Positions 2,536-41,781 of a DNA stretch of 41,993 nucleotides are shown piece by piece (the stretch's first letter is position 1; every line of letters starts with the position of its first letter). A model generated the notes under the pieces. That model did no database searches. It saw nothing but the letters and a program-made list of their open reading frames with translations, and was not told the DNA's origin. The DNA is from Alphaproteobacteria bacterium (GTDB taxonomy: Bacteria > Pseudomonadota > Alphaproteobacteria > SHVZ01). A program made the position numbers and the translations under genes. The DNA is taken from the NCBI GenBank assembly GCA_009694025.1, contig SHVZ01000019.1:1-41993 (forward strand). Direction: 5' to 3'.

Positions 2536-4110
2536 ATGACCATCGCTAAACGAACGATAGGTGTCGCGGTCGCCGCCGCGCTGAGCCTGGCGGCAGGGTT
2601 GACCTCGGCCCAGGAGCTGACGATCGGCCTTGGCGCGTCCGTCACCTCGCTCGATCCGCATTTCCATGCGTTGGGGCCGAACAACAACATCGCCTCGCAT
2701 GTCTTCAACTCGCTGGTCGAGCAGGACGAGAACCAGCGCCTCGTTCCCGGCCTCGCCGTCTCCTGGACGCCGCGCGAGGACGACACCTGGGTGATCAAGC
2801 TGCGCCCGGGCGTGAAGTTCCACGACGGCTCTGACTTTACGGCCGAAGACGTGATCGCCAGCGTCAAGCGGGTGCCGTGGGTGCCGAACAGCCCATCTAA
2901 CTTCACCATCTACACCAAGGCGATCAAGAACATCGTCGTCGTCGATCCGCTGACGATCGAGCTCAAGACCGACGGCCCGTACCCGCTGATGCCGAACGAC
3001 CTCAGCAACTTCTTCATCGTCAACAAGAAGATGGTCGAAGCGCCGACCGAGGACTTCAATCGTCTGGCCGCTACGATCGGTACCGGCCCCTACAGGTTCG
3101 TCGACTATGCTCGCGGCGACCGCATCGTCATGGAGCGCAACGACGCCTACTGGGGCAAGAAACCGGAATGGAAGAAGGTCACCTTCCGGCTGATCACCAA
3201 CCCGGCGGCCCGTGTCGCCGCGCTGCTCGCCGGCGACGTCCAGATGATCGAGGCGGTTCCGACCGCCGATATCGAGAAGCTGAAGGCCAATGCCGCTCTC
3301 ACGCTCGCCCAGGCGGCATCGAACCGGCTGATCTACCTGCATATGGATCACCAGAGGGAAGTGACGCCGTTCATCGCCGACACGTCGGGCAAGCCGTTGG
3401 CCAAGAATCCGCTCAAGGACTTGCGGGTCCGCCAGGCGTTGTCGAAGGCGCTCAACCGCGATGGCATCGTCGAGCGTGTCATGGAGGGCGTCGCGGTTCC
3501 TGCCGGGCAGCTGCTCGCCGACAGCTTCTTCGGCACCAGCCCGAACCTGAGGCCCGAGAAGTTCGATCCGGACGGGGCGAAGAAGCTGCTCGCCGACGCC
3601 GGCTTTCCGAACGGCTTCGCCATCACCATCCACGGCCCGAACGACCGCTACATCAACGACGGGCGCATCATCCAGACCATCGCCCAGATGTGGAGCCGTA
3701 TCGGGATCGAGGCGAAGGTCGAGGCGCTGCCGTGGGCGACCTTCGCGACCAAGGCCACCAACCAGGAGTTCACGATCTACCTGGTCGGCTGGGGTTCGGG
3801 CACCGGCGAGACGTCGTCGACGCTCCGCTCGCTGCTCGCGACATTCAACCGGGACACGGGCATGGGGCAGGCGAACCGCGGCCGCTACAGCAATCCCGAG
3901 CTGGACAAGGTGCTGGCCGAGGCGTTGAAGACGGTCGACGACAAGAAGCGCGGCGAGCTCCTGGCCAAAGCCAGCGAGATCGGCGTTCGCGATGTCGGCA
4001 TCATCCCGCTGCACTACGAAGTGTCGACCTGGGCGATGAAGAAGGGCCTCAAATACGTCGCCCGCGCCGATCAGCAGACCATGGCGATGGAAGTGACCAC
4101 CGCGAAGTAG
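2536..4110 (+). CDS. ABC transporter substrate-binding protein, peptide/nickel family (SBP_bac_5)
   Basis: Periplasmic ligand-binding component of a peptide/opine-type importer; 524 residues, the usual size for family 5 binding proteins. Residues 1 to about 25 form a signal peptide (basic start, Ala/Leu-rich core, cleavage near TSAQ). There is no lipobox, so it should be soluble. The mature part begins with the family pattern LTIGLGASVTSLDPHF and contains GTGPYRFVDYARGDRIVMERNDAYWG, the typical hinge region. An AGGGAGA ribosome site precedes the ATG. It is the first gene of a five-gene importer operon and is separated from the first permease by 133 bp holding a strong hairpin, which often lets the binding protein be made in excess. 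The ligand may be a dipeptide, opine or similar small molecule and cannot be named from sequence. Confidence 0.92.
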   Translation: MTIAKRTIGVAVAAALSLAAGLTSAQELTIGLGASVTSLDPHFHALGPNNNIASHVFNSLVEQDENQRLVPGLAVSWTPREDDTWVIKLRPGVKFHDGSDFTAEDVIASVKRVPWVPNSPSNFTIYTKAIKNIVVVDPLTIELKTDGPYPLMPNDLSNFFIVNKKMVEAPTEDFNRLAATIGTGPYRFVDYARGDRIVMERNDAYWGKKPEWKKVTFRLITNPAARVAALLAGDVQMIEAVPTADIEKLKANAALTLAQAASNRLIYLHMDHQREVTPFIADTSGKPLAKNPLKDLRVRQALSKALNRDGIVERVMEGVAVPAGQLLADSFFGTSPNLRPEKFDPDGAKKLLADAGFPNGFAITIHGPNDRYINDGRIIQTIAQMWSRIGIEAKVEALPWATFATKATNQEFTIYLVGWGSGTGETSSTLRSLLATFNRDTGMGQANRGRYSNPELDKVLAEALKTVDDKKRGELLAKASEIGVRDVGIIPLHYEVSTWAMKKGLKYVARADQQTMAMEVTTAK

Positions 4111-12573: not shown

Positions 12574-13487
<914 letters not shown>

Positions 13488-13488
<1 letters not shown>

Positions 13489-14903
13489 TGGACGCCAGAG
13501 CCTTGCTCAAGGATGCAGGCCTTGCGGCGTTCGTCGCCTTCGCGCTCGCCTTTCCGATGGTTGGATTCCAGACCATCGATGTCTCCGGCAGCCACGGCAT
13601 CACCGTCGTCACGCGCTTCGGCGACGTCGCGATTGCCGTCGCCCTGGTCTTCATCGGCCGCCTCGCGCTCAGCCTCCTTCAGAATCGTGCCATGCGCTTG
13701 CCGATCCTGGTACTTTCGGCGGCTCTGGCGGTCGGACTGCCGTTGCTGACGACGTCGTACCCGGTCATCACCTGGCTCTCCGTGATTGCCACGGCGGTGA
13801 TCGCGGTCAGGGCAGCATGGCTGGTCTTCGACATCGCGGACGTCGTCGGTCGCGACGAAGGTAACCATCTCCGCGACGCCACGGCCTTCATCGGTCGCTG
13901 GTTCGGGCCGGTCCTGGTCGTTTTCGCCGTCCTGTTTCCGTTCCTACCGATGACATCGCGCTATATCCTCGACCTCGGCATCCTGGTCCTGACCTACGTC
14001 ATGCTCGGCTGGGGGTTGAACGTGGTGGTGGGCCTCGCCGGGCTGCTCGATCTTGGCTACGTCGCCTTCTACGCGGTCGGCGCCTATTCCTACGCCATCA
14101 TCGCCCAGACATTCGGCTGGTCGTTCTGGGTCTGCCTGCCGCTCGCCGGACTCTTCGCCGCGTTCTTCGGGGTGATCCTGGGGTTCCCAGTGCTGCGCCT
14201 ACGCGGTGACTACCTTGCCATCGTGACGCTCGGCTTCGGTGAGATCATCCGCATCATCCTGCTCAACTGGTCGTCCTTCTCGGGCGGTCCGAACGGCATC
14301 AGCGGCGTGCCGCGGCCGTCCTTTCTAGGCTTTCCGTTCACGGCGAACCCGCCGGAAGGCACCAGGGCCTTCCACCAGCTCTTCGGTCTCGACTTCGCGC
14401 CTGAGCATCGGATCGTCTTCCTCTACTACCTAATCCTGGCGCTCGCCCTCGTCACCAACATCTTCACGCTGCGCATCCGCAAGCTGCCGATCGGCCGTGC
14501 CTGGGAGGCGTTGCGGGAAGACGAGGTTGCCTGCCGCGCGCTCGGCATCAATCCGACCAATACCAAGCTCACGGCCTTCGCCATCGGCGCAATGTTCGCA
14601 GGCTTCGCCGGCGCATTCTTCGCGACCCGGCAAGGCTTCATCAGCCCGGAGAGCTTCAGCTTCCTCGAATCCGCGGTGATCCTCGCCATCGTCGTTCTCG
14701 ACGGCATGGGCAGCCAGATCGGTGTCGTCCTGGCGGCGGTGCTTCTGATCGGAATCCCGGAATTCTTCCGTGAGCTCGCGCAGTTCCGCATGCTCGCCTT
14801 CGGCGCGGCGATGGTCGGCATCATGATCTGGCGCCCACGCGGCCTCCTCGCCCACCGTGATCCGTCGATCCACCTGCCGAAGGCGGTCGGAGGCGGCGCG
14901 TGA
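13488..14903 (+). CDS. livM: Branched-chain amino acid ABC transporter permease LivM
   Basis: Second permease of the importer, 471 residues. It is longer than a minimal LivM because of an N-terminal extension of roughly 140 residues with several extra hydrophobic helices before the conserved core. The core starts near YILDLGILVLTYVMLGWGLN and has VVGLAGLLDLGYVAFYAVGAY, the LivM signature. The cytoplasmic loop WEALREDEVACRALGINPTN contacts the ATPases. The ATG at 13488 overlaps the livH stop; the upstream open frame is a shadow of livH. It overlaps livG by four bases. Long LivM proteins with this extension are common in alphaproteobacteria. Confidence 0.93.
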
Positions 14904-15750
14904 CACGGTCGCCGCTCCTTGCGGTCGAGCATCTGACCATGCGGTTCGGCGGTCTGGTCGCGGTCGACGATGTCTCCTTCACCGCCTACGACCGCGAGAT
15001 CACGGCGATCATCGGGCCGAACGGCGCCGGCAAGACGACGGTGTTCAACTGCCTGACCGGATTTTACCCCACGCCGGTCGGGCGGCTCCGGCTGACCGGT
15101 GGCCGCGGCGAGTTTCTGCTCGAGCGCATGGACGGGTTCCGCATCGCCCAGAAGGCGGGCGTGGCCCGGACCTTCCAGAACATCCGGCTGTTCCCGCGCA
15201 TGACCGTGCTCGAGAACCTGATCGTCGCCCAGCACAACGTGCTGATGCGGGCCTCCGGCTACACGGCAGCCGGCCTTCTGGGCCTCCGCCGATACCGGGT
15301 CGCCGAGCACGAGGCGCTCGAGCTCGCCCGGTCCTGGCTCGACCGGCTCGGGCTCACCGCACAATCGGATTGGGAGGCCGGCAACCTGCCCTATGGGTCG
15401 CAGCGTCGGCTCGAGATCGCGCGCGCCATGTGCACGAAGCCGGTGCTGCTTTGCCTCGATGAGCCGGCCGCCGGGCTCAACCCGCGTGAGTCGGCGGAGC
15501 TGAGGGGGCTGCTGACGGAGACCCGCGACCAGCACGGCATCGGAATCCTCCTGATCGAGCACGACATGAGCGTGGTCATGGGCATCTCCGACCATATCAT
15601 CGTGCTCGACTACGGCAGCATGATCGCCGACGGCACGCCGAGCGAGGTCCGGAGCGATCCGGCGGTGATCAGGGCCTATCTCGGCGAGGAGGAGACCGAG
15701 CAGCTCCCGCCGGAAGTGGCGGGCGACCTTCACCAGGAGGGCCGGATCTG

Positions 15751-15751
<1 letters not shown>
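14900..15751 (+). CDS. livG: Branched-chain amino acid ABC transporter ATP-binding protein LivG
   Basis: Cytoplasmic ATPase of the importer, 283 residues from a GTG at 14900 that overlaps the livM stop (GTGA). Motifs: Walker A GPNGAGKTT, the Q-loop in ARTFQNIRLFPRMTVLENL (a LivG hallmark), the signature region LPYGSQRRLEIARAM, Walker B LLCLDEPAAGLNP and the H-loop in LLIEHDMSVVMGI. The signature reads YGSQRR in place of the usual LSGGQ, which is normal for LivG. It overlaps livF by one base. Confidence 0.94.
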
Positions 15752-16461
<710 letters not shown>

Positions 16462-16471
16462 AGGAGACCCC

Positions 16472-16828
16472 ATGAAGGATCTGCTCGGCGCTTCTCCCGG
16501 CCTGTTCTTCGTCGTCACCGTCGTCATGTTCGGCGGCGCCGCCTGGCAGACCGGCCAGGTGCTGGCCCAGACTTGGCGGCCCTACTGGCATATGGTCGCC
16601 TACGGCTTGATGCTGGCTGCTGCCGACCGGCTGATGCTGGTGCTGCTGTTCGAAGGGCGGCTGCTCGCCGTGACGCCCTATCTCACGACCCTCGTGGTCC
16701 TGGTCGGGTTCGGCAGCCTTGCCTTCCGCCTGACCCGGGTGCGGAAGATGGTCGGACAATATCCCTGGATCTACGAGCGTGACGGCCTGCTCGGCTGGCG
16801 CGAGCGCTCGGGGAGCGACCGGCCGTGA
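16472..16828 (+). CDS. Small inner-membrane protein, DUF6867-like
   Basis: A 118-residue protein with three predicted transmembrane helices (about residues 10-30, 40-58 and 66-86) and a conserved-looking C-terminal tail, QYPWIYERDGLLGWRER. A GGAG ribosome site lies ahead of the ATG at 16472. Proteins of this type (DUF6867 in my recollection) sit beside branched-chain amino acid ABC genes in alphaproteobacteria. Its position between livF and livK supports an accessory role in that transporter. The function is unknown; the family name is given with moderate confidence. Confidence 0.8.
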   Translation: MKDLLGASPGLFFVVTVVMFGGAAWQTGQVLAQTWRPYWHMVAYGLMLAAADRLMLVLLFEGRLLAVTPYLTTLVVLVGFGSLAFRLTRVRKMVGQYPWIYERDGLLGWRERSGSDRP

Positions 16829-16916: not shown

Positions 16917-18032
16917 ATGCGCAAATTGACGTCGTCGCTCCTCGCTGCCGTCGCCGTCGCGGCTTTCGCCGCGATGCCGGCCTCGGCGCAGGACCTCGTG
17001 GTCGCGACCGCCGGTCCGATCACCGGACAATACGCGGCCTTCGGCGAGCAGATGAAGCGCGGTGCCGAGATGGCCATCGCGGACATCAATGCCAAGGGCG
17101 GCGTTCTCGGCAAGAAGCTGAAGCTCGAGGTGGGTGACGACGCCTGCGATCCGAAGCAGGCGGTCGCCGTCGCCAACCAGATGGCCGGCAAGAAGATCGT
17201 CTTCATGGCGGGCCACTTCTGCTCGTCCTCGTCGATCCCCGCTTCGGCCATCTACAACGAGAGCGGCATCCTGCAGATGACGCCGGCCTCGACCAATCCG
17301 GCGCTGACCGAAGAGGCGGCCAACAAGAAGTGGACGAACGTCTTCCGCACCTGCGGCCGAGACGACGCCCAGGGCTTGGTCGCCGGCAAGTTCCTGGCCT
17401 CCCAGTTCAAGGGCAAGAAGGTTGCGATCATCCACGACAAGTCCGCCTACGGTAAGGGCCTCGCGGACGAGACCAAGAAGGCGATGAACGCCGCCGGCCT
17501 GCAGGATGCGATGTACGAGGCCATCACCCAGGGCGACAAGGACTTCACCGCGCTCGTCTCGAAGATGAAGGCGGCGGGTATCGACGCCATGTATCTCGGC
17601 GGCTATCACACCGAAGCCGGATTGCTTGTCCGTCAGTCGCGCGAGCAGGGCCTCAATGCGCTGCTCGTCTCCGGCGACGCGCTGGTGACCGACGAGTTCT
17701 GGAAGATCACCGGCCCGGCCGGCCAGGGCACGCTGATGACCTTCGCGCCCGATCCGCGGAAGCTCAAGACCGCCGAGGACGTGGTCAAGAAGTTCAAGGC
17801 CGCCAACTAGGATCCGGAGGGATACACGCTCTACACCTACGCCGCGTTCCAGGCGTGGGCGGCGGCGGTGGCCAAGGCCGGCACGACCGATGCGGCGAAG
17901 GTGGGTGCGGAACTCCGCAGCATGTCCGTCGACACCGTGCTCGGGAAGCTCGCTTGGGACGCCAAGGGCGACGTCAAGGACGCCGCCTATGTCTGGTATG
18001 TCTTCAAGGATGGCAAGTACAACGAGATGTAA
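16917..18032 (+). pseudogene. livK: Branched-chain amino acid ABC transporter binding protein LivK, interrupted by in-frame TAG
   Basis: Periplasmic binding protein of the liv importer. The ATG at 16917 starts a signal peptide (cleavage near ASAQ, residue 24) and a type I binding-protein domain: VVATAGPITGQYAAFGEQ, INAKGGVLGKKLKLEVGDDACDP, and a Cys pair of the kind seen in LivJ/LivK. Codon 298 (17808-17810) is TAG. Beyond it the same frame continues for 73 codons with full family character (DPEGYTLYTYAAFQAWAAAV up to KDGKYNEM) to a TAA at 18030-18032. The whole would be 371 residues, the normal LivK length. The family usually has an aromatic residue where the TAG stands, so one base change from a Tyr codon explains it. 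If real, the product lacks the last fifth of the protein and is probably unstable. A base-calling error is the main alternative. Confidence 0.88.
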
Positions 18033-18084: not shown

Positions 18085-18122
18085 AACGGCCCGGCGGAGA
18101 ACCGCCGGGCCGTTTCCTTTTC
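18085..18122 (+). terminator. Rho-independent terminator after livK
   Basis: A perfect 13-bp stem pairs 18085-18097 (AACGGCCCGGCGG) with 18102-18114, around the tetraloop AGAA. The T-rich tail TCCTTTTCC follows. It ends the liv operon 52 bases after the distal livK stop at 18032, not after the internal TAG, which supports the longer gene as the original one. Confidence 0.85.
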
Positions 18123-40189: not shown

Positions 40190-41781
40190 TCAGTCGACGA
40201 AGTGGACGTCGGCGAAATTGGCGCCGAGCCCCTCGGCGCCGGGGGCGTAGTTACGGATACGCTTGTTGGCGATGATGATCTCCAACGGCGAGATCAGGTC
40301 GACCGAGGGGATGTCCTCGTGAACGATCCTCTGGAACTGCGAGAACATCGTCTTGCGCTTGGCCGGATCGATCTCGATGGCGGCCGCCTCGAGTAGGCGG
40401 TCGACCTCCGGATTGCTATAGTTGGCGGAGTTCGAGAACGGCAGGCCGATACGGAAGTTCTTCGACCAATAGCCGCGCTGGACGCCGACGGTCGGGTCGA
40501 AGACGTTGGTCAGCGACTCGATGGTGAGGTCGAAGCTGCGGTCGGTGTAGACGTTCTTCACATAGGCACCGAACTCGAGGTTCTGAGTGGTCGCGTCGAT
40601 CCCGACCCGGCGCAGCGACTGACGGACGAACTCGGCGAGGCGCCCGTCGATGAACGGGTTGATGAGGAGTCTGACCGGGAAGCGCATGCCGTTGGCGCCG
40701 CGCGGCTGCCCCGCCTCGTCCAATAGCTTGTTGGCGAGCGCCGGGTCGAACTTGCGCGCCTGGACCGCGGGATCGTACCAGGGCGTCAGCGCCACGCTCA
40801 CCGGCGACGGCGACACCTTCGCCTGGCCGTAGAACACGGTCTCGACGATCGCGTCGAGGTCGAGCGAGTGCGCGATCGCCTCTCGCACCTTCTTGTTCTT
40901 CAGCACCGGCGTGTCCAGGTTGAAGAAGATCTGATGCTGGGCGCCGGTATAGGCGAAGCTGCGGGTGTCGACCGCGAGCTTCGGGTGATCCTTGTAGCGG
41001 GCGAGGTCGGAAAGCGGGACCGGGGCGCTGCCGCCGAGGTCGAGATCTCCCGCCTCGAATGCCGCCGCCCGCGCCGCGGCATCCGGCATGAAGCGGATGA
41101 TGACGCGGTCGAGATAGGGCTTAGGCTTGTCCCAGTAGTTGGGATTGCGCTCGAGCACGGCGTGGCTGCCGCGCACCCATTCCTTGAGGATGAAGGGCCC
41201 GGTGCCGATATGGAGCGGCGGGCCCGGAGGTGCCGCCACGTCGACGCCGTCGTAGAGGTGCTTCGGCACGATCGGCGACTCCGATGGGCCGAGCGCGACC
41301 ATCAGATAGGGCGACGGCTTGGAGAGCACGATCACCGCCGTCTTGGCGTCGGGGTGCGCACGTCCTCGACATTGGCGAAGGTGCCGCGGCCGCGCGGATG
41401 GCCGGCCTTCAGGCGCTTGATCGAGAAGGCGACGTCGTCTGAGGTGAAGGGCTTGCCGTCGTGCCAGGTCACGCCCTCGCGCAGGGTGAAGGTGTATTCG
41501 AGCCCGTTGGGCGAGATCTTCCAGGCGGTGGCCAGCATCGGCAGCGGCTTCAGGTCGATATCGTAGGTGACGAGGCCGTCGAAGATCTTGGCCGAAGTCG
41601 TCGGCGTCGAGGTGTTGTTGATGGCCGCCAGCGTCGGCGGCTCGTACTTCATGACGAAGCGGAGGGTGCCGCCGTGCTTGGGATCGGCGGCGTCAGCCGC
41701 GGGCGCGACCAGGGCGCCGCCGAGACCGAGGAGAAGCGTCGCGATCGCCGCGACGGTCGATCGGAAGCGAGACGAAATCAT
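40190..41781 (-). pseudogene. ABC transporter substrate-binding protein, peptide family (SBP_bac_5), frameshifted
   Basis: Periplasmic binding protein of the second importer, broken into two frames. The first part (41781-41332) has a signal peptide (cleavage near ADAA, about residue 32), the family start KHGGTLRFVMKYEPPTLAAIN, and WHDGKPFTSDDVAFSIKRL. It reads normally to FANVEDVRTP, then shifts into TPRRR and a stop. The second part (open from 41335 to 40190) begins VIVLSKPSPYLMVALGPSES and runs to a normal C-terminus. Restoring one base near 41350 (reading CCG GAC GCC AAG) joins them as DVRTPDAKTAVIVLSK, giving about 530 residues, the normal size. The ATG has an excellent AGGAGG site (41788-41793). 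The lesion would abolish import if real; an assembly or base-calling error is the alternative. Confidence 0.88.

Follow-up and report, generated by a model that had tools for sequence, protein, structure and literature searches.

A private in-frame TAG interrupts a livK-type gene in a draft alphaproteobacterial genome

The DNA analysed here (the window, 41,993 nucleotides) is the whole of contig C60 from a 3.28-Mb, 105-contig, 78%-complete draft assembly of an uncultured alphaproteobacterium. It carries a gene for a periplasmic amino-acid binding protein that is interrupted by an in-frame stop codon, with the following features at the locus:

12607..16828, plus strand: the genes that immediately precede livK, namely livH, livM, livG, livF and one for a DUF6867 protein, all with intact frames.
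16917..17810, plus strand: 5' part, up to the predicted end of translation, of the livK-type periplasmic amino-acid binding protein gene (297 aa, then TAG); Peripla_BP_6 (PF13458) matches the read-through protein with E=5e-56.
17808..17810, plus strand: in-frame TAG, codon 298 from the ATG at 16917; Tyr in all four same-genus orthologues.
17811..18032, plus strand: same-frame continuation of 73 codons plus TAA (18030-18032).
18085..18121, plus strand: strong terminator-like hairpin with a 13-bp stem (18085-18097/18102-18114), an AGAA loop and a T-rich tail, 3' of the second livK stop.

The whole livK-type gene spans 16917-18032 and encodes 371 aa when read through. The match to Peripla_BP_6 spans the read-through protein (residues 29-358, 191 bits), and an alignment to amino-acid binding proteins of known structure, 3ip5 for instance (E=4e-115), extends from one end of the protein to the other. 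A previous sequence-only reading of this DNA had placed a TAG at codon 298, followed by an intact and family-like frame of 73 codons and, beyond the second stop, by the operon terminator. All of this is borne out: intact orthologues of identical length, 94-95% identical in protein sequence from end to end, are present in four genomes of the same genus, and hairpins equivalent to the one at 18085..18121 lie 3' of the orthologue in five of the five relatives examined. An Rfam search of the window returned no match. Apparent “internal stops” that the comparison with sister genomes produced in other window genes (livM, livF and others) were traced to sister ORFs extended upstream or to shadow frames of those ORFs, and were rejected as lesions.

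Using a codon model trained on homology-supported genes, we scanned 435 kb of the genome (the window together with parts of six further contigs) for stops with same-frame coding signal on both sides. The livK TAG ranked first of the 25 stops retrieved, while nearly all of the remaining 24, whose flanks were judged by eye, resembled the ends of neighbouring genes. One of them precedes an opgC gene on contig C10 and another is the UGA of a selenoprotein gene on contig C99, both of which are considered below.

Codon 298 reads TAC, TAC, TAT and TAC in the four same-genus orthologues and TAC in a genome of the same family, which supports the proposed origin of the TAG by one substitution in a Tyr codon. 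A fifth congener, whose genome is 82% complete, yielded no livK orthologue. Across 105 homologue matches (slightly fewer distinct sequences, since some genomes occur in both collections), the residue at this site was Tyr in 79, Phe in 10, Ile in 9, Val in 4 and others in 3. The expectation of an aromatic residue thus stands for most homologues, with Ile or Val taking its place in 13 of the 105. A stop was found at this site in none of the 105 homologues and in none of the four congeners with the gene. The closest records that carry a name are metagenome assemblies of alphaproteobacteria. Among the genomes compared, this assembly alone carries the TAG.

Compared with the sister genes, livK has a dN/dS of about 0.05-0.07 upstream of the stop and 0.13-0.21 downstream; comparisons of the sisters with one another give 0.05-0.10 and 0.05-0.22, so the C-terminal part of livK tends to be less constrained in the sisters too. 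Upstream of the stop, 22 synonymous and 5 nonsynonymous changes are private to this genome; downstream of it the counts are 5 and 4 (Fisher p=0.18). The four nonsynonymous changes after the stop compare with about 15 expected had the whole private branch been neutral (P about 7e-4), and the segment contains no indel. Relaxed selection downstream, which is expected only of an old lesion, was therefore not seen, as dN/dS lies within the sister range. Since the post-stop segment is still under purifying selection and free of indels, the stop is either recent or not real, which upholds the earlier suggestion that, if real, it arose very recently.

We then considered how TAG is read in this genome. 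It accounts for 112 of 352 gene-like stops (32%) in the 435-kb sample and ends 10 of the 34 homology-supported genes in the window, and it terminates frames at all four places that the sequence-only reading had cited. Both release factors are encoded, RF1 with its GGQ and PAT motifs and RF2 with SPF. Frequent termination at TAG together with the presence of RF1 rules out reassignment of the codon, as had been argued from its use as a terminator. No tRNA with a CUA anticodon was found among the 23 tRNAs identified, although the assembly is 78% complete and tRNA-Tyr was likewise not found. Pyrrolysine at this site is also unlikely, because TAG is an ordinary terminator here and the relatives carry Tyr or another ordinary residue. 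Internal stops are absent from all 112 ABC_tran and 80 SBP_bac_5 matches genome-wide; of the four Peripla_BP_6 matches, livK alone has one and the three others do not.

The stop falls ahead of sequence that completes the fold. An intact orthologue, modelled at pLDDT 91.5, has its last two helices (302-321 and 326-334) and four strands (337-340, 343-347, 359-364 and 367-370) beyond the stop position, and P300, E301, G302, Y303, L305 and Y308, which also follow the stop, are invariant in 38 homologues. A 297-aa product would be missing both of these helices and all four strands, so it is most likely non-functional. Its loss may be tolerated, given that three stop-free Peripla_BP_6 genes exist in the genome.

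Two further small irregularities of the assembly bear on whether the TAG base is real:

40190-41781, minus strand: SBP_bac_5 peptide-binding gene, split at about 41350, where a CCC run carries a 1-base frameshift relative to a congener.
L156:6385-7512, contig C10: opgC (PF10129, 382 bits), whose coding frame opens immediately 3' of the TAG that ends the preceding gene.

The frameshifted gene lies 640 bases from the contig end, on the same contig as livK, and is the only split one of the ~77 copies in the genome. No start codon occurs among the first 60 codons of the opgC frame, and the nearest ATG is one base out of frame. Each of these could be a real lesion or an assembly error. As a separate observation, the ~77 SBP_bac_5 (oligopeptide-type) genes and 112 ABC_tran matches in this 3.3-Mb, 78%-complete genome represent a large expansion of peptide-type ABC transporters, which includes window positions 2740-3849 and 40469-41547.

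The codon scan that brought up livK also surfaced a stop of a different kind:

L155:10576-11670 (C99:70576-71670), minus strand: thioredoxin-like selenoprotein gene of the ResA-like WAxxUGC family (NF041054, NCBIfam match above cut-off), with the UGA at 71262.

Four other congeners and one distant relative, 50% identical, share this UGA, and the stretch of ~30 nt 3' of it is nearly identical among congeners. We found selB in several of the UGA-bearing genomes, with tRNA-Sec in both selB loci checked; neither was found in this incomplete genome, though both were found in congeners. UGC-containing TlpA proteins are known selenoproteins (PMC13188914), and the UGA is a truly recoded stop. It is conserved and accompanied by its machinery, as functional recoding should be, whereas the livK TAG is private.

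How, then, is the livK TAG best explained? Of the three options offered earlier, a very recent nonsense mutation and a base error are both still live, with the former placed slightly ahead and the latter nearly as likely; the weights that we give to these and to the third option, a suppressed codon, are a matter of judgement and were not computed. On balance we lean, by little more than an even chance, towards an ordinary stop that arose through a single, very recent nonsense substitution, leaving this copy a fresh null allele or pseudogene. One substitution would have converted the Tyr codon of an otherwise intact livK to TAG, translation would stop after residue 297, and the protein would end short of its final helices and the strands at its C-terminus. 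The gene has the in-frame stop and the intact orthologues that mark a nonsense allele, as read from the assembly consensus of one genome of the species; that the base is real and no consensus error is our inference. A fixed loss of livK is, however, not expected under the strong constraint seen in the genus (dN/dS about 0.06 before the stop), and the fragmentary state of the draft, with its other small lesions including the 1-base frameshift at about 41350, also counts against this explanation. These same facts favour an error of one base in the consensus, or a consensus that mixes co-assembled strains, with livK intact in the living population, to which we assign somewhat less than an even chance. 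The draft is broken into 105 contigs and 78% complete, constraint is strong on both sides of the stop, the frameshift on the same contig and the opgC start that is one base out offer possible parallels, and the anomalous base is the same as the one 3' of it (TAG G), a weak hint in that a phasing-type read error could give such a pattern. Errors are nevertheless not rampant, as the 112 ABC_tran and 80 SBP_bac_5 matches without internal stops attest, and an assembly consensus normally requires most reads to agree. A chimeric join at the TAG was rejected, as identity to the four sisters in 60-nt bins shows no step there.

Readthrough of the TAG, by a suppressor tRNA or a leaky UAG, would yield some full-length LivK, perhaps in a regulated manner, and we regard it as very improbable. 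The segment after the TAG is under purifying selection, which is one criterion for bacterial readthrough (Belinky et al. 2021, PMC7918605), and the missing 22% of the genome could hold a suppressor tRNA. Yet a recent stop or an error predicts the same constraint, which therefore provides no evidence of readthrough here, and the criterion of the same study concerns stops shared by orthologues in at least two species, whereas this one occurs in no congener. TAG ends about a third of the genes, so that an efficient suppressor would lengthen many proteins; RF1 is present; the 53 nt downstream have no unusual fold (z -1.75); and the recoded stop that this genome really has, the WAxxUGC UGA, is conserved. 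Even fainter is the prospect that weak readthrough, or an amber suppressor encoded in the missing part of the genome, makes some full-length LivK and turns the TAG into a regulatory brake on amino-acid uptake. The suppressed-codon option thus finds no support: a CUA tRNA is absent from the 23 identified, the genome encodes RF1, TAG serves as a common terminator and no relative shares the stop.

The livK stop has an ordinary explanation, and the finding hardly matters beyond annotation, where the gene should be labelled as interrupted. Its worth lies in the contrast, within one genome, between a private stop and the truly recoded UGA of the WAxxUGC selenoprotein. Nonsense alleles of recent origin occur widely among bacteria and are for the most part soon lost, and most in-frame stops last about as long as polymorphisms in a population do (PMC7918605). 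Like single-lesion pseudogenes and null alleles, livK has one in-frame stop in a sequence that is otherwise intact and constrained, and other species do not share it; it differs from them in that the base is known from the assembly consensus alone. Draft assemblies also produce spurious internal stops (Cooley and Wright 2024, PMC11017572), and livK resembles such cases as a conserved gene broken by one base in a draft assembly, while the low overall rate of internal stops in conserved families sets this genome apart from them. With the bacterial in-frame stops proposed to be read through (PMC7918605) it shares a dN/dS well below 1 downstream, but its stop is common to no orthologue. Compared with the LivK/LivJ branched-chain binding proteins (PDB 3ip5, 4n0q, 2liv, 1usg), the gene has full-length homology when read through and follows livHMGF, but it is interrupted at codon 298, and its match to the NCBIfam LivK-type subfamily model falls below the cut-off (364 vs 477 bits), so that any exact substrate assignment would be tentative.
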